This document shows, in pieces, positions 2 through 15,703 of a DNA stretch of 15,981 nt; position 1 is the stretch's first letter; every line of letters starts with the position of its first letter. The stretch comes from Planctomycetia bacterium (GTDB lineage: Bacteria; Planctomycetota; UBA1135; GCA-002686595): assembly GCA_005778045.1 (NCBI GenBank), contig SXKQ01000040.1, forward strand, positions 1 to 15,981. The letters run 5' to 3'. The position numbers and the translations under genes were made by a program. Below the pieces are notes generated by a model. The model was given only the letters and a program-made list of their open reading frames with translations, searched no databases and was not told the DNA's origin.

Positions 2-1033
2 GCGGAGTTCGCCCTGAGCGACTCGCAGGGACGCTTCTCGCTGCGCATGCCGCCGCAGCACCCGCGTGCGCGGCTCGAGGCGCGCAAGGACGAGCTGCGC
101 AGCGAGCGCGTCGCGGTCGCGCGCGGCGCGAGCGGTGCGGAGCTCGTGCTCGCGCCCGCGGGCGGAATCGCTGGTCGGATCGCGTGGGAGGGCCTGTCGA
201 GCGGCGTCCGGCTGCACGTGGTTCCGCTGCTCGAGGCCGACGATCCCGGCGCGGAGCCTCCGCAGTGGACCTTCGTGCTCGCCGATGGCCAGTTCTTCGT
301 GCGCGGCCTGCAGCCCGGCCGCTACACGGTCGAGATCCGCCGGAGCGGTGGCTCGGATCCGCTCGCCAGCGTGATTGGGGTCGAGGTACGGCGCGGCGAG
401 ACGACGCGCGACCCGCGGCTCGATCCGCTCGCACTCGTGGCGACCGCGCGCGTCGCGACACTCACGATCGTCGATGGCTCGGGTCGGCCCCGGTCGGAAG
501 GGCTCAACATCATCGGGCGCTACAAGAACGCGAGTGGCGGCGACGACTACGAGTGGATTCCGCTCCACTCGGGCCGCGCCGTCGTGATCATTCCCGACGT
601 CGCGCCCGCGGTCTCCGTGATGGGGGCCGAGTACCTCACCGAGTACATCGAGCGCCTCGACGACGATCGCACCGTCGCGATGCGTCGCGCGCCGACGGCG
701 CACTTCCGACTCACGCAGCACGTGACCTTGCCGCCGGACATCACGCTCGGTGTCAGCCTCGAGCACGAGCTCGGTGACCGGGCCGGTTTCTCGTGGGACT
801 TGGAGCAGCCGGAGTTTGACGAGAACGGCCGCGCCGTCATGCGCGTGCGCCACCTCGGAAACTACAAGCTCCTGCTGCGCGCCACGCTGCGCGGCGAAGT
901 CTGGAAGTCGATGCCCCTCGACATGCCGGCGCTCGAGCTGCACGTGCGCGAGCTGCCTGCGGAGCAGACGTTCGAGGTCACCTGTCCGGAAGAGCCGCTG
1001 CAGGTCGTGCTCGAGGCGCTGAAGCGGCCGTGA
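2..1033 (+). CDS. Ig-like-repeat (carboxypeptidase-regulatory-like) protein, 5'-truncated, paralogue 1 of 3
   Basis: The frame is open from base 2, so the true start lies before the window; 343 codons are visible before TGA at 1031-1033. The first ATG (position 47) is internal, because the preceding residues (DSQGRFSLRMP) match the strand motif in the next two paralogues (DAQGKFELRTP, DALGRFELRVP). The visible part holds Ig-like repeats of the type 'DGxFxVRGLxPGxYTVEI' followed by 'TRDPRLDPLALV', and ends in a conserved tail (FEVTCPEEPLQVVLEALKRP) also found at the ends of the genes finishing at 2724 and 5312. The family usually forms extracellular beta-sandwich modules; no catalytic residues are evident. 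By analogy with the third paralogue it was probably exported and membrane-anchored. The reading as a regulatory-like repeat protein is confident; its biological role is unknown. Confidence 0.75.
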   Translation, partial: AEFALSDSQGRFSLRMPPQHPRARLEARKDELRSERVAVARGASGAELVLAPAGGIAGRIAWEGLSSGVRLHVVPLLEADDPGAEPPQWTFVLADGQFFVRGLQPGRYTVEIRRSGGSDPLASVIGVEVRRGETTRDPRLDPLALVATARVATLTIVDGSGRPRSEGLNIIGRYKNASGGDDYEWIPLHSGRAVVIIPDVAPAVSVMGAEYLTEYIERLDDDRTVAMRRAPTAHFRLTQHVTLPPDITLGVSLEHELGDRAGFSWDLEQPEFDENGRAVMRVRHLGNYKLLLRATLRGEVWKSMPLDMPALELHVRELPAEQTFEVTCPEEPLQVVLEALKRP

Positions 1034-2724
1034 GAGGTACGCAGCGCGCTGCTGCTCGCGCTGCTGCTCGTCGCGGCGGGCTTCTTCGTCTGGCGCCTGC
1101 GAGAGCGCGAGACCGCGGTCGATGGCGCGCAGCCGCCACGGCTGGACGCTCCTTCGCACGGCACCTCCAGCGCCGGCATGGAGTCGTCGCGCGTCGAGGG
1201 TGAGTCGTCGGCGGAGATGCAGGCGTCGAGCGGTGTGACGGCACCTTCGTCGCCCGCGCGCCACGTGCGGGCCATGCTCGCAGGCAGCTCGCGCGCGGTG
1301 GCCGGTGCCGAAATCGTCTGGTGGGTCGCGAGCGAAGGGCGCGACGAGTTCGAGCGCTGGCTCGAGGAATCGCTGGCCGAAGCGAGCCTGTCGCCGGACG
1401 CGCGCCGCACCGTCGCGGATGGTCAGGGCCGCTTCGAGGTCGCCAGCTCCGAGGCGACCGAACTCGACGAGGGTGCCGCGCTCGACGCTCACGAATGTGA
1501 CTCGCAAGGCCATGCGCTCGGCAGGGTGAGGCTCCGTCTTCCGCGCGAGGCGATGACGCAGCGCATCGAGCTCGGCGACGCGCCCGTGGAGCCGCTGCCG
1601 GTCTTCGTGAGCGGACGCGTCCGGCTCGCGACGGGCGAGCCCGCGGGTGGTGCGCTGGTTACCCCAGATGACCTGAAACCACAGTCGGGCTGGTTCGACG
1701 TCGATCGTCCGGCGTCGAGCTGGCGCATGCGCCGCGATGCGCAGGGCAAGTTCGAGCTGCGCACGCCACTGAGTGCGACACACCTGGCACTGACTGCGGC
1801 CAAGGACGGCTACACGAGCGAGCCCGTGACCGTGACGGCGGGAAGCCGCGATGTCGAGCTCGTGCCGGCTCCGGGGGCGACGCTCGCTGGCCGCCTCATG
1901 CTGCACGAATCCGTCGCCGCCGAGCGCCTGCGAGTCCGCATGCGCGAGTCGACCGAGTTGCCGTCGCTGCGATCGCCACGCCACTCCCCGACGGGAGCTT
2001 TGAGTGTCGCGGCCTGCGCCCCGGCACGCTGCCGCTGCAAGTCTACTAGCTGCAGATGACCCGCGAGTTTGCGCGCGTCGAGGGGCTTCACATCGCGGAA
2101 GCTGGCACGAGTCGCGATGCGCGGCTGGAACCGCTCGACCTTTCGAATGATCTACGCGAGATCGCGCTGTCGCTGCTCGATGCGCGCGGCGAGCCCAGCG
2201 CGCAATCCCCGCAGGTCGAGCTCCATCACGGTGGCCCGAAGGCGGAGTTCGAGTGCGCGGATGCGCGTGTTCCCTTCCTGCTCGGGCGCGAGCCCGTCGA
2301 CGTGCTCATCGCATGCAAGTCGTACTTGCACGAGTTCCTGCCGAGCGTCCGGGAGAGCGGGCCCGTCGTGCTGCACGCAGCGCCTACACTGCGCTTCCGG
2401 TTGCCGGAGGCCGCCTACGCCGCGCTGCGCTGTCTCGTACCCTCCCTGCAGCTTCGCCCGCAGCGCGAGACGAGCCTCGACGACGGCCAGCCGATCGCCT
2501 TCAAGGGCGGTCAGGCCGTCGACACGCTCGCGGTCGTGGCCGGTCAGTACCGCATGGCCCTGCAGCTCTGGCACCAGCACGACGGAAGCTGGATCTTCGG
2601 GGAGGTGCCGCTCCGCGAGCCCAGCCGCACCGAGATGGTGAAGGGCCCGCTCCCGCAGGAGTTCGACGTGTTGTGCGACCCCGTGGAGATGGCGCGGGTG
2701 GTGTCGCAACTGTTAGACAAGTGA
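1030..2724 (+). pseudogene. Broken paralogue 2 of 3 of the Ig-like-repeat anchored proteins
   Basis: Homology to the neighbours runs from about 1034 to 2724, but no single frame covers it. A hydrophobic anchor (ALLLALLLVAAGFFVW, about 1046-1093) is encoded in the frame used up to about 1940, yet that frame has no ATG, GTG or TTG before 1178; the natural GTG at 1030 is one frame off. The protein then follows paralogue 3 (GAEIVWW versus GADVLWW) until RVRMRESTEL. From about 1940-1980 homology moves to another frame (PDGSFECRGLRPGTLPLQVY, then FARVEGL and DARLEPLDL), and in that frame a TAG at 2047-2049 interrupts it. The 3' part (ATG at 2056 to TGA at 2724) ends in the family tail. It also lacks several central repeats present in paralogue 3. 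I read it as a decayed gene; clustered sequencing errors are the alternative. Confidence 0.72.
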
Positions 2725-2726
2725 GC

Positions 2727-5312
2727 ATGCAGCGCCGCGCCTACCTGACCGCAGCTCTCGTCATCGCGCTGATCGCGGTGCTGTGGACCGTTCGGATGTC
2801 GCAGCGACCTTCCGGCGCCGTGCAGCCGGAAGCCGCGGACGTGGGGACGGCACTCCCGCAACAAGATGCGGGCGCCAAGCCCGTCGAGTCGCCGGCAACG
2901 CCGCAGCGCGACGAGGTCACCGCGAGCAGCTCGACGCTCGAGGGCGAGACGCTTGCGGTGCGCGTGCTCGCGAGCGGGACCTTCGATCCCGTCGCTGGGG
3001 CGGACGTGCTCTGGTGGCCCGCGCTCGATGCGGCGCAGGGAGACGGGGAGGAGCTCGTGCGGCGCCTGCTGCGCTCGGACGAGTCGCGCACGCTGCTCTC
3101 GAGCGCGGGCCGCACGACAAGCGATGCCGACGGGCGTGCGCAGGTGCCCGATGCAGTACACGGGGTGCTGGTACTGGCGCGCGCGGAAGGGCGCTTTGGC
3201 CTCGCGCAGTTCCTGCGAGGCGAGTCACCGCCGCTCGAGGTGCTCCTGCAGCGTGACTTCGCACTCGAGGCGCGCGTCCTCGATGAGCAAGGCGCCGAGC
3301 TCGAAGGGGTCGACGTGGAATTGCGCGTGGGAGACGACCCTCGCAGCGCCGTGCAGCTGCGGGAACGCAGCGACTCCAAGGGCCGCGCGCGCTTCGAGCA
3401 CGCCGGCTTCGCCATCGCCACCTGGGGTGCGGGCTCGGAGCTTGGCTCGCTCGCGGTCGCGGAGCCGACGGAGCCGCCGGCAGTGCTCGAGTTCGCGCTG
3501 GCCGAGCCCCCGCAGGCTCCGGTCGAGCTCGTGGTCTCGCGCGGCGGCGAGTGCGAGGTGCGCATCGTCGGTCGCGACGGACAGCCCGCGAGCGGCCACT
3601 TCGACGTCATCCTTGGATATTTGCCGGGCGAGGACATCGAGCTCGAGGAACTCGATCCGAGTTGGGCGTCGGGTGCGCGGCGCAGCGACGTCGAGGGGCC
3701 GAGCGTGCTGTTCCGACACGTGCGGCCGGGACGGGAGCTGCTTGCGACGGTGCTGCGCGAAGGAGCTGGGGCTGCGCATCGGGCGATCGGGAGCGGACCG
3801 GCGAGCGCCGATACGCGCGCGGTGATCGAAGTGCGACTGGGAGCGGGCTGCACCCGGCTGGAAGGTCGCGCTCTGGCAGAGTCGGGCGAGCCGCGCGCGA
3901 GCGCGTTGCTGGAGCTCCGCATCCGTGGAGAGGACACTCTGCCCGGGCCGGCCCTCGCACCTGCCGTGCGCGCGAATGCTCAAGGTCGTTTTGAGCTCGA
4001 GTTGGAAACAGCGCGCTGGATCGAGCTGGGGGACGTGCCGCTGCAGCTCGTGGAGCTCGATTCCGAAGGCGGCGAAGTCGCGGAAGCTGCGCTGCGCGTG
4101 ACGGCGACGCCCGACACTCTTCGCGTCGATCTCGGGAACGTGCGGCTGGAAGCCCGCTCGCTCTACGCGAGCGGTCGCGTCATTACGAGCGAGCACGAGC
4201 TTGTGTGTGGCGCGTGGGTGATGGGCGCGCTGCTCCACGAGGAGCAAGGAGCACCTGCGGAGAGCGCTCTGGAGCTGCTCCCGCACGTGCGCGCGCGCAC
4301 CGACGCTCTGGGACGCTTCGAGCTGCGGGTGCCGCGCGGGCTCGAGGAACTTCAGCTGCTCGCCGGCAAGGGCGAGCTGCGCAGTCCGCCCCTTCGCGCG
4401 ACCATGGGCGTTCAGGACCTGCAGATCGTGCTCCAGCAACGCGCGGAGATCGCCGGTCGACTCGTCGTGGACCCGACGATCCCGATGAGCCGCGTGATCG
4501 TCGTGGCGACATGCAAGGCCGTCGCCGGCGAGGGGATCCTGCGCGTCCGGCCGGAGCCCGACGGGCGTTTCGTGCTGCGCGGTGTCCGTCCGGGAGAACA
4601 CTCGGTGACGGTGCACGCGGTGGATGGCTACGCCGAGCTGGCGCGCGTCGAGGGCGTGTTCGCACTCGCCGGCGAGCGCACTCTCGACGCGCGTCTCGAT
4701 CCGCTCGATCTGCGCGCTGGACATCGTTCCATCGCGCTTGCGCTGCGCGACGAGTCGGGAGCGCCGTTCACGGGCGAGGTATCGGTCGTCGTGCGCACGG
4801 TGGGCTCCGAGGGCGAGCGCGCGCTGTTCGCGCCTGTGCTGCAAGGCGTGGCGAGCGTGCTGGTCGGTGACACGCCACCGCTCGTGACGGTTGTCGCTCC
4901 CGGCCATCTGGCGCAGGTGCTCGGTCCGGTCGACAGCGATCGAAGCGTGACCTTGATGCGCGCGCCGATGTTGCGCTTCACGCTCGCCGGAGATGCCGAG
5001 CTGCCAGCCTTGCCCTACCGGCTCGCCCTGCAGTTTCGGGCCGCCGGTCCAGCCGCCCGGGACGTCGCTCGACACCTGCCGAAGCCTGAGTTCGGCGGCA
5101 ACCGCAGCGCGCGCTGCGAGGCGGTCCTCGCCGGCAAGCTGCAAGTGATGTTGAAGCTCGTGCGCCGGACCGAGGAGAGCTGGAACGAGGTCGAAATCCC
5201 GCTCGACCCGACGCTCTGGATCGATGTGCGGGAGCGTGGCGAGCAGGCGTTCGAGGTGCGCTGCACGCCCGAGGCGCTCGACAGCGCGCTGCGCGCCCTC
5301 GGAGGTCGCTAG
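2727..5312 (+). CDS. Membrane-anchored multi-repeat Ig-like (carboxypeptidase-regulatory-like) protein, paralogue 3 of 3
   Basis: 861 aa from ATG 2727, two bases after the preceding stop. The frame is open further upstream, but that extension is arginine-rich nonsense overlapping the previous gene, whereas 2727 gives a clean N-terminus: MQRRAYLTAALVIALIAVLW, a positively charged start plus one membrane helix (about residues 5-21). A Ser/Pro/Glu-rich linker follows to about residue 75. From there on there are at least five Ig-like repeats with the 'GRVxxxxGxxxxxAxVxLxxxDxxGRFxLxxP' pattern, clearest near residues 78-130, 182-240, 375-430, 476-540 and 573-630. The C-terminus carries the family tail (FEVRCTPEALDSALRALGGR). 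No enzyme motif is seen. Likely an inner-membrane-anchored periplasmic or surface structural/binding protein; function unknown. Confidence 0.82.
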   Translation: MQRRAYLTAALVIALIAVLWTVRMSQRPSGAVQPEAADVGTALPQQDAGAKPVESPATPQRDEVTASSSTLEGETLAVRVLASGTFDPVAGADVLWWPALDAAQGDGEELVRRLLRSDESRTLLSSAGRTTSDADGRAQVPDAVHGVLVLARAEGRFGLAQFLRGESPPLEVLLQRDFALEARVLDEQGAELEGVDVELRVGDDPRSAVQLRERSDSKGRARFEHAGFAIATWGAGSELGSLAVAEPTEPPAVLEFALAEPPQAPVELVVSRGGECEVRIVGRDGQPASGHFDVILGYLPGEDIELEELDPSWASGARRSDVEGPSVLFRHVRPGRELLATVLREGAGAAHRAIGSGPASADTRAVIEVRLGAGCTRLEGRALAESGEPRASALLELRIRGEDTLPGPALAPAVRANAQGRFELELETARWIELGDVPLQLVELDSEGGEVAEAALRVTATPDTLRVDLGNVRLEARSLYASGRVITSEHELVCGAWVMGALLHEEQGAPAESALELLPHVRARTDALGRFELRVPRGLEELQLLAGKGELRSPPLRATMGVQDLQIVLQQRAEIAGRLVVDPTIPMSRVIVVATCKAVAGEGILRVRPEPDGRFVLRGVRPGEHSVTVHAVDGYAELARVEGVFALAGERTLDARLDPLDLRAGHRSIALALRDESGAPFTGEVSVVVRTVGSEGERALFAPVLQGVASVLVGDTPPLVTVVAPGHLAQVLGPVDSDRSVTLMRAPMLRFTLAGDAELPALPYRLALQFRAAGPAARDVARHLPKPEFGGNRSARCEAVLAGKLQVMLKLVRRTEESWNEVEIPLDPTLWIDVRERGEQAFEVRCTPEALDSALRALGGR

Positions 5313-5318
5313 GCCAAG

Positions 5319-5582
5319 CTACTTGTTGGCGCTCACGATCGGCCAGACCAGCACGGCAAGCCCCGCGATCACGTCCAGCGCGGCGAGTCCGCTGGCGACC
5401 CACGCGGCCACGCCCGGGGACGTGGCGCGCGCCTCCTGCGAGTACTGCAGGGCGAGCAGGGTCCCGAACATTCCGACGCCCAGACCGAGCGTCCGCTTCC
5501 AGTCGCCTCAGCAGGATCCCTTGGCGAGCCAGAAGCCGAGCGGCGCCACGCCGCCTGCGAGCAGGGCATAGAGTGCTTTCAT
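5319..5582 (-). CDS. Candidate small membrane selenoprotein (Cys-Sec motif, UGA codon 25)
   Basis: Reading minus from ATG 5582 gives MKALYALLAGGVAPLGFWLA, then KGSC, a TGA at 5510-5508, then GDWKRTLGLGVGMFGTLLAL and onward in the same frame to TAG at 5321-5319: 87 residues if TGA is read as selenocysteine (Sec25). Three hydrophobic segments are visible (about residues 3-20, 31-46, 58-82), and the Cys24-Sec25 pair sits in the polar loop between the first two. Just after the TGA is a hairpin with a GGUCU loop (5475-5493) resembling a bacterial SECIS. Protein-like sequence continues on both sides of the TGA. I do not recognise the family. A vicinal Cys-Sec pair would suggest thiol/selenol redox or metal chemistry at the membrane, but that is inference. 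Alternatives are a nonsense mutation or base error (for example TGC or TGG). No clear Shine-Dalgarno precedes the ATG. Confidence 0.6.
5475..5493 (-). promoter_or_regulatory. SECIS-like hairpin downstream of in-frame UGA
   Basis: On the minus strand the stem is GACGC/GCGUC, topped by a U-G wobble or bulged U and a C-G pair, with apical loop GGUCU. The loop begins 21 nt after the UGA (the UGA is 5510-5508, the loop 5486-5482). The Escherichia coli fdhF SECIS, as I recall it, has an apical loop containing GGUCU with a bulged U on the 5' side of the upper stem, at nearly the same distance from its UGA. The pairing and loop are seen directly; recognition by SelB is inferred. Confidence 0.5.
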
Positions 5583-5693
5583 GGCGGGAGTCTGGGCTCG
5601 GAGTCGATCGGATTCCAGCCTGCGGCACGAGAGGGAATCCGGCGGAACATTGCCTGTTCGCTCGGACGCGCGGATGATGCCCGGCGAAGCGCG
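5583..5693. promoter_or_regulatory. Divergent intergenic region with inverted repeat and weak promoter-like boxes
   Basis: These 111 bases separate the minus-strand small membrane gene from the plus-strand five-gene operon. A perfect 8-bp inverted repeat, CGGATTCC (5609-5616) and GGAATCCG (5634-5641), lies near the middle with a 17-nt spacer; its placement fits an operator for a dimeric regulator. For the plus direction, TTGCCT (5650-5655) and GATGAT (5673-5678) are separated by 17 nt, each matching 4 of 6 sigma-70 consensus bases, and end 15 nt before ATG 5694. The repeat is certain; the operator and promoter roles are guesses. Confidence 0.3.
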
Positions 5694-8381
5694 ATGAAGA
5701 CCCCCAACCACTGGCCCGTGATTTCCTTGCTCGCGCTCGCGGCCTGTGCGCGCCCCGAAACGGCACCGAGCGAGTCGGCCACTCCCCAGCCGCCGATCGT
5801 GACCCGTGCGCTGGCCGATGCGGAACGTCCGAAGCTCGAGCAGGCTGTCGCGCGCATGCGCTGCGCCGCCTGTCACGCGAGCGCGTCCGAGCGAGTCACG
5901 CCCGAGCCCGCGCCATCGCTGGTCGGCATCGGCGCCCGCAAGACTCCGGAGGGCTTGCGTCGCTGGCTCGCGGATCCCCAGGCCGCCAAGCCCGGAACGG
6001 CGATGCCGGACATGCTGGCCAAGCTGCCCGCACGCGAGCGCGAGGTCGCCCTCGACGAGCTTGTTCACTATCTCGCAGCGCAGGGCGGGCCCGTGCAGCC
6101 GACGGAGCGCGAAGTGGAAGTCGCGGAGCTGGAGCTCGGACGACGCCTCTATCACGAGGTCGGCTGCGTCGCGTGCCACGAGCCGCAAGAGGATGCGGAG
6201 GACCTCGAACGTTCCCTGTGGTCTTTCCCGGCCGAGGAGCGCGTCGCGCCGCAGGTTGCCGGCACATTTGGCTCGACGGCTTTCGACACGGATGTCGACG
6301 CGCTGGCGGCATTCCTGCGCGATCCGCTCGCTGCGCGACCTTCGGGCCGCATGCCTTCGCTGCTGCTCGAAGCGGTCGAGTCGCACGCGATCGCCACCTA
6401 CCTCCTGCGCCACCGCATCGGCCCCGAGGGGCTCGTCACCAAGCCGGGCTGGCGCTACCGCTATTACGAGGGCACCTTTTCCTCGGCGCAACCGGGCTTT
6501 TCCGATGCAAAGCCCGTGCGCGAAGGCACGCTCGACTCGCTCGACGGCTTGCCGGAGCACCGACCCGACAACTTTGGCTTCGACTTCACGGGCCTGTTCG
6601 AGATCGAGGTCGCGGGGACCTACACGTTCTGGACGTGGTCGGACGATGGCTCGAACCTGTGGATCGACGGTCGTGAGGTCGTCGAGAACGACGGCGATCA
6701 CGGGCCGACCGAGCGCTCGGGTGAGATTCAGCTCGAGGCCGGCGCGCACGAGATGGTCGTGGCGATGTACGAGCACGGCGGCGGGCAGGAGCTGCGCGTC
6801 GAGTGGCAACCGCCCGGTGGCGAGAGGCAGGCGCTCCCGGCGCAGTTCTTCTCGCATGGCAGCGGACGCATGCTCGCTGCCGCGACGACGTTCCAGCTTG
6901 ACACTCCGAAGGTGGAGCGCGGTCGCGCGCGCTTCGAGCGGCTCGGCTGCAACGCCTGCCACGCGATCGAGTCGCAAGGCATCGGTGTTCCCAGCGCGAC
7001 GCCGCTGGCGGAGCTCGCGCAGCGGCCTGGCGACGGCTGCGTCGGCACGACGGCGCCCGCGCGCGGTCCGCGCTATGGGCTCGACGACGAGCAGCGCGTC
7101 GCTCTGCGCTCGTTCGTCGCGGATGCGGCGAAGCTGGCGGAGCCGCGCACGGACGAGGAGCGACTCGAGAGCACGCTGTCGCGGCTCGATTGTCGCGCTT
7201 GCCACCGCCGCGGTGACGCAGGCGGGCCTGACCTCGAGCGCGCCAAGTACTTCCGCGAGGCGATCGAGGCCGACCTCGGCAACGAAGGCCGCCTGCCGCC
7301 GCTGCTCGACAACGTCGGAGCCAAGCTGCATTCCGCGTGGCTCACGCGCGTGCTCGACGAAGGTGCACGCGTACGTCCGTACGTCGCGACGCGCATGCCG
7401 GTCTACGGATCCGCGAATACAAGCGCACTGACCGCGCTCTTCGAGCAGGTGGACGGGCACGGCGTCGAGGACGTCCCGCAGGAATTCGATCCCGTGCTCG
7501 TCGAGGCTGGCCGCAAGCTCGCGGGCAAGTCGGGACTCGGCTGCATCCAGTGTCACCGCTTCAACGGTGCCGAGTCGCTCGGCATTCCTGCCGTGGACCT
7601 CGCGACGGTCAGCGAGCGCATCCGTGGACCATGGTTCCGCCAGCTGCTCACGGACCCCAAGTCGCTCGGCATGAACACGCGCATGCCCGAGATGTGGCAG
7701 GTGATCGACACGCCCAACGGTCGCGTGCAGCGCAGTCCCGTGCGCGACGTCTGCGACGGCGAGCCCGCTCGCCAGATCGAGGCGCTGTGGCAGTACCTGT
7801 CGCTCGGCGCGTCCATGCCCTTGCCCGACGGACTCTTCATTTCAGAGCGCGAGTACGAGCTCGTACCAGCGAATGGGCCGGAGATCTGCGCGGTTTTTCT
7901 GCGCGGGCACACGCCGCGCGGGCTGATGGTCGGCCTGCCCGAGCAGGTTCACTACGCGTGGGACTTCGAGCACGCGCGCGCCGTCTGGGCTTGGCGCGGC
8001 CGCTTCTTCAACGCGGCGGGGACGTGGAACGGTCGCGCCGGTGCGCTTGAGCGTCCACCAGCGGCCGATGCGTATGAGTTCCCAGCCGGAGGCGCGCTCG
8101 CGAGCGAACCTGAGCTCGTCGCGCGTCCGCAGGGCTGGTCGCTCGATGCGGCCCAGCGTCCCGTGTTCCGCTACGCGCTCGGAAACGTCGAGGTCGAGGA
8201 GACCTTCGAGCCCAAGTTGCGCAGGGGTGGCTCGATCCTCGTGCGCAAGCTCGTCGTCTCGCACGACGGGGGCGCGAGCGAGGCCGCCGGGCTGCGCCTG
8301 CGCCACAGTGGCGCGGCGCTGGAGTTCCGTGAGGAAGGCGGGCGCTCCGTGGCGCGCGCGGAATGGGAGGTTGTGCCGTGA
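5694..8381 (+). CDS. Pentahaem c-type cytochrome lipoprotein with inserted PA14 domain
   Basis: 895 aa from ATG 5694, chosen because it gives a lipoprotein signal (ISLLALAAC, lipid-accepting Cys18). Five CXXCH haem sites are visible: CAACH (57), CVACH (158), CNACH (419), CRACH (500) and CIQCH (617). Met-Pro motifs that could give the distal ligand follow four of them (Met104, Met220, Met568, Met664); none follows the third. A PA14-type beta-sandwich lies between haems 2 and 3 (about 252-377), recognised from YYEGTF, the FTWSDDGSNLWIDG-type core (here FWTWSDDGSNLWIDG) and HEMVVAMYEHGGGQELRVEW. PA14 modules often bind carbohydrate. The C-terminus (about 740-895, from TPRGLMVG) resembles that of the cytochrome at 10997. 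Its stop overlaps the next start (GTGA). Likely an exported electron acceptor for the propeller partner; the partnership is inferred from coupling. Confidence 0.88.
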   Translation: MKTPNHWPVISLLALAACARPETAPSESATPQPPIVTRALADAERPKLEQAVARMRCAACHASASERVTPEPAPSLVGIGARKTPEGLRRWLADPQAAKPGTAMPDMLAKLPAREREVALDELVHYLAAQGGPVQPTEREVEVAELELGRRLYHEVGCVACHEPQEDAEDLERSLWSFPAEERVAPQVAGTFGSTAFDTDVDALAAFLRDPLAARPSGRMPSLLLEAVESHAIATYLLRHRIGPEGLVTKPGWRYRYYEGTFSSAQPGFSDAKPVREGTLDSLDGLPEHRPDNFGFDFTGLFEIEVAGTYTFWTWSDDGSNLWIDGREVVENDGDHGPTERSGEIQLEAGAHEMVVAMYEHGGGQELRVEWQPPGGERQALPAQFFSHGSGRMLAAATTFQLDTPKVERGRARFERLGCNACHAIESQGIGVPSATPLAELAQRPGDGCVGTTAPARGPRYGLDDEQRVALRSFVADAAKLAEPRTDEERLESTLSRLDCRACHRRGDAGGPDLERAKYFREAIEADLGNEGRLPPLLDNVGAKLHSAWLTRVLDEGARVRPYVATRMPVYGSANTSALTALFEQVDGHGVEDVPQEFDPVLVEAGRKLAGKSGLGCIQCHRFNGAESLGIPAVDLATVSERIRGPWFRQLLTDPKSLGMNTRMPEMWQVIDTPNGRVQRSPVRDVCDGEPARQIEALWQYLSLGASMPLPDGLFISEREYELVPANGPEICAVFLRGHTPRGLMVGLPEQVHYAWDFEHARAVWAWRGRFFNAAGTWNGRAGALERPPAADAYEFPAGGALASEPELVARPQGWSLDAAQRPVFRYALGNVEVEETFEPKLRRGGSILVRKLVVSHDGGASEAAGLRLRHSGAALEFREEGGRSVARAEWEVVP

Positions 8382-14745: not shown

Positions 14746-14754
14746 GCGCTCAGC
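14741..14754. terminator. Palindrome spanning two convergent stop codons
   Basis: GCTGAGCGCTCAGC is a perfect 14-nt palindrome containing the plus-strand TGA (14743-14745) and the minus-strand TGA (14752-14750) of the converging genes, which are 4 bases apart. There is no loop spacer and no T-tract, so a hairpin would have a strained tip. It could act as a weak bidirectional terminator or be chance. Confidence 0.2.
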
Positions 14755-15703
14755 CGCTGAGTGCCGCGGGGTCGCGGAAGACCTCGCGGTGGTGCCAGCG
14801 CAGCATGTCGGGCCGCGGTGCATGGCTCGCGTTGGCCGGCGGTCGGATCTCTCGTCCGTCGTAGGCGTGGAAGAGCGCTCGCGTGCGCTCGTCGCGCGCG
14901 AGCTGGTTCGCGACTCGCACGCGCAGGTTCTCGTCGAGTGTGAAGGCGCCGCGATCGAAGCCCGCGTGGTGCATGCGGCACATGCTCAACCCGTTCCAGA
15001 TCTCGTCGGGGCCCTGTGCCGCGGCCCAGCGGATGTGCGCGGCCTCGATGCCGAAGAGTCGAGCGCGATGACGCGGGGCGACCTCGCACACGACGCGGCG
15101 CTCGTCGTACGCGCGCAGCACTCGAGCGCTGAAGCGGGGATCTCGAAGGACGCGCCACGTTGGGGCGACTTCGCGCACGACGAGCCCCAGCTCCGGAAGC
15201 GTGACTGGGTCAAGCTGGTCCGAGTTCCCGTCGCTCATCGCCGCGCTCAAGAGCTCGTCGCGCATGGTGTCGGGGACGATGGATGCAGCGATGCCATACG
15301 CGACGAGCCATGCTTCTTCGGGGTGCGACAGGAAGTGAGCCGCGTACTGTTGCGACAGTCCGAACGACAGGTAGGTACGCATCGCCACGATGCTCGGATT
15401 TCCCGCGGAGTCACTGGGCACCTGCTCCGCCCCGACGAGCTCCCACCAGCTCACGCTCTCCTCGCTGCGTCGCGCGAGGCGCCAAACCGGCTGCTCGGGA
15501 TGCTACTGGGCTCGCACGGGACCGAAGCGCTCCAGCAGCTCGCGCAACGGCCCCTCGGCCGCGGCGAACGTCACCAGCCGCTGTCCCGCCAGCGCACGCC
15601 CGAGCGCGAACAGAATGGCCAGGCGCTTGTGCGGCGCCCGCTCCCCACCGCGCGTCCACGCCGGCTGTTGCTCGACCTCGTTCAGGAACTGTCGCAGGTT
15701 CAA
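14750..15703 (-). pseudogene. SBD-HNH restriction endonuclease (phosphorothioate-DNA type), interrupted by an in-frame TAG
   Basis: Reading from TTG 15703, the N-terminus (NLRQFLNEVEQQPAWTRGGE, then RAPHKRLAILFALGRAL and PLRELLERFGP) matches the sulphur-binding-domain start of HNH enzymes that cut phosphorothioated DNA. A TAG at 15505-15503 then interrupts it, and the same frame continues HPEQPVWRL, where the family normally has HPEYPFWRL. The rest runs to TGA at 14752-14750, giving 317 residues in all if the stop is ignored, close to the family's usual size. The HNH part is clear: EAAHIRWAAAQGPDEIWNGL (His223), CRMHHAGFDRGAFTLDE, and a tail LRWHHREVFRDPA. The first zinc-binding pair (usually CAVCG) reads VVCEV, so one cysteine is missing. 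Two independent defects argue for a dead gene; a shorter product from ATG 15454 would lack the DNA-binding start. Confidence 0.72.

Follow-up and report, generated by a model that had tools for sequence, protein, structure and literature searches.

Contig SXKQ01000040.1 carries on its minus strand a short frame interrupted by a single TGA, and the question raised by this locus is whether that codon breaks the gene, is read as tryptophan, or specifies selenocysteine (Sec). The whole 15,981-nt stretch of the contig is referred to here as the window, and all coordinates are those of the window. A first-pass annotation had proposed that its product, a small membrane selenoprotein with a Cys-Sec pair, may represent a new family. 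The frame with its coordinates, the single TGA after Cys24, the GDWKR sequence that follows, and the TAG end were all confirmed, and the three hydrophobic segments that had been claimed were found by a hydropathy threshold. The features are listed below, with counts of Cys and TGA codons taken from a 27-row table from which the near-twin of the window gene was left out.

5319..5582, minus strand: predicted selenoprotein coding sequence, 87 residues, TAG stop included; homologues are aligned over its whole length.
5511..5513, minus strand: Cys24 codon, immediately 5' of the Sec codon; Cys in 26 of the 27 tabulated rows, Thr in L182.
5508..5510, minus strand: UGA codon 25, predicted to be read as selenocysteine; TGA in 27 of the 27 tabulated rows and in L205.
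5475..5493, minus strand: putative SECIS hairpin, 7-bp stem with a GGUCU loop, 21 nt from the UGA to the loop.
5523..5576, minus strand: hydrophobic segment 1, residues 3 to 20 by hydropathy; helix 2 to 21 in the structure model.
5445..5492, minus strand: hydrophobic segment 2, residues 31 to 46 by hydropathy; helix 28 to 54 in the model.
5325..5414, minus strand: hydrophobic segment 3, residues 57 to 86 by hydropathy; helix 58 to 86 in the model; missing from short type B relatives.
5694..8381, plus strand: divergently oriented neighbouring gene whose product has PA14 and cytochrome c domains, given as context only.

The model of the window protein, built from 10 sequences, contains three helices (2 to 21, 28 to 54, and 58 to 86) with a mean pLDDT of 73; the structure models are modest in confidence (pLDDT 73 and 64). 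Charge counts gave no single membrane orientation that fits all types of family member. A 682-codon open frame (5508-7556, minus strand) lies opposite the cytochrome gene, enters the first 24 codons of the selenoprotein gene and ends at its UGA, an arrangement that could mislead gene callers.

The state of the TGA site was followed in relatives of the window gene. TGA occupies the site in all 29 collected genes, namely, the window gene and 28 relatives; 28 of the 29 come from planctomycete genomes, 27 of these belonging to one class. Twelve of the genes were first found through a DNA pattern that contains the TGA, and the other 17, which include the window gene and its near-twin, were found without asking for TGA. 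Protein comparison, able to find Cys forms equally well, supplied 16 of the 28 relatives. A search of protein databases returned six matches, all of them half-proteins, four ending in KGSC or KGTC and two beginning past the TGA; these entries are split because of the TGA at the site, as in FJ298_05520, which stops at it. A scan of 84,980 species, each represented by one genome and searched at a sensitivity that reaches close relatives only, yielded two loci, both in planctomycete metagenome-assembled genomes. In both of these nearest relatives (95% and 83% identity), the TGA stands at the same codon in a frame that is otherwise open.

Broader sampling came from searches within a single phylum. 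With the window protein as the query, 392 genomes of the phylum gave six matches at an E value of 0.001, four of which (51 to 95% identity) contain one TGA; weak matches without TGA in G256 and G282, screened for a C-stop-G string only, were not accepted. A profile of six rows matched 10 of the 154 genomes of the class, all with the TGA. A 10-row profile gave nine matches at an E value of 0.01 in the 392 genomes, including the same four as the single-protein query, and added a short distant relative in G157 (E = 0.0097); four further matches of this profile were not counted as members, and L054, L055, and L057 were rejected once their translations had been read. The DNA pattern combining TGA and hairpin was found at 27 places in 26 of the 154 class genomes, the reversed control giving 5 matches; on translation, 23 of the 27 proved to be members and 4 (L143, L144, L150, and L159) were judged to be chance. 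A 24-row profile run over the same 154 genomes listed 38 matches in 34 genomes at an E value of 0.1, of which the 27 at 1.4e-3 or better are members with TGA at the site, one per genome, four of them missed by the DNA pattern; the 11 weaker matches are outside the member count. Over 199 genomes of the phylum, this profile added one member, L205 in G167, which lies outside the 154 class genomes, while matches in G036 and G082 were read and rejected. Among viral contigs, the window protein found no relative, and the 64 stretches that matched the DNA pattern showed nothing member-like when their translations were inspected by eye; the window protein was likewise without a match among plasmids and phages.

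These data bear on the alternative that a nonsense mutation or a sequencing error has broken the gene. Disruption of other genes in the window speaks in its favor, and the first-pass annotation had warned of in-frame TAG codons at 1030-2724 and 14750-15703. The first of these is the central member of three related genes arranged in tandem (2-5312) and, compared with its relative in L051, shifts frame near 1969, so that part of the warning concerns an indel rather than an in-frame TAG. The second did hold: an in-frame stop at 15503-15505 interrupts the gene at 14750-15703 (minus strand), which has an HNH-like appearance, and the sequence flanking that stop looks coding. Conservation of the TGA in all 29 genes nevertheless refutes the broken-gene reading for the family as a whole, selection persists past the TGA (below), and we give this reading practically no weight.

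Coding character had been claimed to continue across the TGA, and purifying selection was indeed found on both sides of it. Among the 36 pairs formed by nine type A genes (the group that includes the window gene; types are defined below), pS is higher than pN in every case after the TGA and in 34 cases before it, the other two being ties at two decimals. The signal is clearest between close type A pairs; for example, pN/pS is 0.04/0.32 before and 0.06/0.25 after the TGA for L137-L138, and 0.08/0.34 and 0.10/0.29, respectively, for L136-L140.

The SECIS-like hairpin of the first-pass annotation is present at 5475-5493, starting 14 bases after the UGA. It satisfies the published bacterial model (PMC13188914), which specifies a loop of 3 to 9 nt with G in the first two positions, a stem of 4 to 16 bp, a distance of 16 to 37 nt from the UGA, and a minimum free energy of at most -7.5; the corresponding values in the window are 5 nt with GG first, 7 bp, 21 nt, and -9.8 kcal/mol. 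As a bare hairpin, it is weak evidence, because 51 of the 235 TGA trinucleotides in the window satisfy this implementation of the model. A search of the window for the specific combination of TGA and hairpin gave one match, none of 200 shuffles contained it, and the full set of seven pairs at these positions together with a GG loop is likewise found once, at the selenoprotein gene. When cut out as bare 19-nt hairpins, 23 of 29 meet -7.5 kcal/mol and 6 are weaker.

Comparison among members carries the case for the hairpin further. All 28 aligned members have it at the same distance from the UGA without gaps, with the proviso that the DNA pattern itself dictates the spacing, the loop start, and the 5' arm from column 21 in the members that it retrieved, leaving the 3' arm free. 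On 27 distinct rows, 94.7% of the cells are paired, compared with 25 to 46% in slid control versions, and compensatory changes on both sides occur in four of the seven stem pairs (24 such cells). None of 500 shuffles reached the paired percentage, the cell count, or the covariation score, and the two remaining measures of the five were reached by 2 and 3 of 500, in a test that may be inflated by relatedness of the rows, as the tool itself warns. RNAalifold recovered the same helix with one further pair. In L183 and L184, the two arms have changed jointly (CACGAUC..GAUCGUG and CACGGUC..GAUCGUG), and the loop of L183 has GGG in place of GGU. The codons that overlie this region also stand apart at silent positions. 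In type A, pS of the 12 codons after the TGA is 0.00 to 0.41, compared with 0.32 to 0.80 before the TGA and 0.25 to 0.74 beyond; in 34 of the 36 pairs it is below the values on either side, a comparison that has only some 10 silent sites to draw on. For the Gly in the hairpin loop, 26 of 27 rows use GGT, as do 15 of 16 when the rows that the DNA pattern found first and the near-twin are set aside; the share of GGT among all Gly codons is 13.7% in script-called open frames of at least 200 codons from the surrounding loci.

A check for selA, selB, selC, and selD had been recommended, and selA, selB, selD, and tRNA-Sec are all present in the genomes of the two close relatives, G001 and G002. tRNA-Sec with the anticodon tca scored 71 bits in both (cut-off, 47). 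The selA matches reached 499 and 497 bits in G001 and G002, respectively; selB reached 324 bits in G002 and 305 in G001, or 331 when a neighbouring match is included; and selD reached 306 and 298 bits, each match having one in-frame TGA. Machinery beyond selA was checked in these two genomes only, and selA alone was examined in the remaining member genomes. Among 27 member genomes of the class, selA is over the cut-off in 24, represented by fragments only in two, and lacking in one. Sec decoding is near-universal in the class of G001, 139 of its 154 genomes having selA above the cut-off, so that no association between selA and the family can be shown and other unknown selenoproteins may be present in the class.

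If the TGA were instead read as Trp under genetic code 4, or suppressed, the protein would contain no Sec. This reading draws on P0008, an 81-residue database relative with Trp at the Sec site; Trp in all homologues had been named beforehand as evidence against Sec, and it was encountered in this one database protein, while a partial database protein, P0009, has a different reading there. At the very position of the terminal TGA in its closest relatives, P0008 again has Trp, as is expected from code-4 gene calling, and it is therefore taken as a gene call made with that code; judging from its protein sequence, we think that its Trp is a TGA so translated. Code 4 itself was rejected, since TGA is the terminal stop in 8 of the 10 type A genes. 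With the Sec machinery present and the SECIS covarying, the Trp reading is very improbable, and UGA codon 25 of the window gene is, with high confidence from the sequence comparisons, read as selenocysteine.

Most family members have 52 to 118 residues, and most share a hydrophobic hairpin with C-U-G-[D/H] and LG. Three types were distinguished. Type A (10 genes including that of the window) has CUG[D/N][W/P][K/R]R[T/M]LGL, with three helices in the model of the window protein. Type B (12 genes) comprises proteins of 52 to 84 residues with CUGDxxxMLGTGM or a variant; by the hydropathy threshold, 10 of them have two hydrophobic segments and the other 2 a single one. Type C (7 genes) has CUGHPLxMLG or a variant, with three or more hydrophobic segments in five of the six examined. 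Variation around the site includes Ser after the Gly in L160 and IG/VG replacing LG in L183/L184 (all type B), and Cys-Sec-Arg-His versus the usual Cys-Sec-Gly-His in the type C protein L181 (G505), whose start is ambiguous. In alignment A5 (24 rows), Gly16, Cys24, the TGA, Gly26, Leu32, and Gly33 are invariant, Leu-Gly and TGA being imposed in rows that the DNA pattern supplied. In a tree built on 39 columns, type A forms a group (99/98), type C does so weakly (70/85), and type B is not one clade.

The vicinal Cys-Sec pair of the first-pass annotation thus stands for 26 of the 27 tabulated rows and fails in L182 (G413), a type B protein with Thr before Sec and no Cys anywhere, so the pair is not essential everywhere, which suggests that Sec is the constant part of the site. 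In 21 of 28 proteins, the Cys preceding Sec is the sole Cys, an arrangement that fits either a redox pair or a two-atom soft-metal site.

Homologues with Cys or Sec at residue 25 had been named as support; TGA codons are found throughout, and the Cys form was not found among the matches read from protein and genome searches, whose reach was approximately 8000 candidates scored in each of two protein profile searches and at most 13, 27, or 35 candidates scored per genome. This is unusual for selenoproteins, nearly all of which have Cys forms according to the review that holds the inventory (PMC13188914), and it would suit a role as a selenium sensor, in which low selenium causes a stop at the UGA and leaves a 24-residue peptide, sufficient selenium yields the full membrane protein, and the choice between the two is the function itself. 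Purifying selection on the downstream part and conservation of the residues around Sec as in a reactive site make such a sensor unlikely.

Window protein and members were compared with known families. No model of Pfam or NCBIfam (release 20.0) matches the window protein, and the 24 members match unrelated models only (E = 0.069 or worse), those of NCBIfam being four models at 0.11 to 0.5, each with one member. None of the 24 matches mercuric transport PF02411 or YeeE/YedE PF04143 (GUxSG) at E values up to 1. A PDB fold search gave a best E value of 1.5, and a PDB sequence search gave nothing usable, its best match being a designed repeat protein at 0.02. No entry in the 2026 inventory of 119 families (PMC13188914) is recognizable as this family by name, domain, or motif, and full-text word searches of openly licensed papers listed no title on it. 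Within the reach of these searches, we take the window gene to represent a new selenoprotein family, set apart from the inventory entries by their descriptions; the claim of a new small membrane family is supported by the constant TGA and the lack of a known-family match.

Overall, we put the probability at roughly 0.85 that the product of the window gene is a selenoprotein belonging to a new family. The ribosome would read UGA codon 25 as selenocysteine, insertion being directed by the downstream hairpin with SelB and tRNA-Sec. The product would be a small membrane protein whose loop between helices 1 and 2 holds the Cys-Sec pair and, right after it, Gly-Asp (in type C, Gly-His). Less firmly, Sec may do the reacting and the adjacent Cys the resolving, the pair cycling between thiol/selenol and a selenenylsulfide ring by analogy with thioredoxin reductase; candidates for the substrate, which could lie in or at the membrane, include quinones, lipid peroxides, and thiols. 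A membrane redox role is our tentative preference over metal handling and selenium sensing, held at less than even confidence.

Gene neighbourhood was considered in this context. In 9 of the 10 type A loci, including the window and excepting L046, a homologue of the PA14/cytochrome c protein adjoins the selenoprotein gene or lies at a remove of one gene. Upstream of the window gene lie PA14/cytochrome c, DUF7133, CAP, cytochrome c, and DUF7133 plus 3-keto-disaccharide hydrolase proteins. The type B genes L151, L152, and L160 are preceded by a 3-keto-disaccharide hydrolase/M28 protein or a homologue of it, and a glucose/sorbosone dehydrogenase follows in L195. Other loci differ; neighbours vary between types and indicate no one function.

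The other reading of the site is that Cys-Sec binds a soft metal or metalloid (Hg, Cu, Ag, or arsenite) and moves it across or out of the membrane. Small Mer transporters carry a vicinal Cys pair that handles metal, and the short length, the mostly two to three hydrophobic segments, and the adjacent Cys-Sec near residues 24 and 25 in most members resemble this arrangement. Against it, no A5 member matches Mer transport or another transporter family in Pfam/NCBIfam at E values up to 1, no metal-resistance gene was seen among 18 proteins scanned from the surroundings, and a second adjacent Cys pair is absent from the 28 listed proteins; metal handling is thus possible and rather doubtful.

Beyond the tentative redox role, we lean slightly toward a superfamily of membrane microselenoproteins, down to 52 residues, that are Sec-only and in which selenium cannot be replaced by sulphur. 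If this is so, a hydrophobic hairpin with one selenol and usually one Cys would perform selenium-specific membrane chemistry and would have been overlooked by methods that require Cys homologues. Most selenoprotein searches rely on Cys/Sec pairs or annotated families, and deep-Sep may miss selenoproteins without Cys homologues, as its description states (PMC12013277). Since no Cys form was found and database entries are cut at the TGA, small selenoprotein groups may be overlooked. Were Sec truly obligate, these proteins would be a minimal system of about 50 residues, one selenol, and usually one Cys, for asking why some proteins retain Sec although Cys does the job in most cases, a question still open. 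With its conserved hairpin, the family can also be searched for by a simple DNA pattern.

Known systems share parts of this design. Animal thioredoxin reductase ends in Gly-Cys-Sec-Gly, which cycles between thiol/selenol and a selenenylsulfide ring. The adjacent Cys-Sec is common to both, flanked on each side by Gly in several type B proteins (TGCUGD, SGCUGD), and similar selenenylsulfide chemistry would be expected; unlike the reductase, the present family has the pair in an internal loop of a short membrane protein, with no Pfam flavoprotein match. Small Mer transporters are short membrane proteins with a reactive pair near the first helix, a likeness by analogy that extends to the putative mercuric transport selenoprotein (PF02411), whose motif is C/SxxU in the inventory, whereas that of the present family is CU (PMC13188914). 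GrdA was reported in 2006 as being without known Cys-containing homologues (PMC1794560), and none was found for the present family in the searches above; the motif of GrdA is CxxU (PMC13188914), and no GrdA match was found in the family. Closest in motif are the CU selenoproteins HgcA, SaoL, SaoC, SaoB, CopZ-like form 2, MbdU, and KCU-star/DUF466 (PMC13188914, Table 1). Most of these have NCBIfam accessions in that table, whereas the window family is a small membrane protein with no NCBIfam match and no Cys form found; what they share with it is the adjacent Cys-Sec, as given in the motif column, and a UGA with its SECIS inside the coding region.
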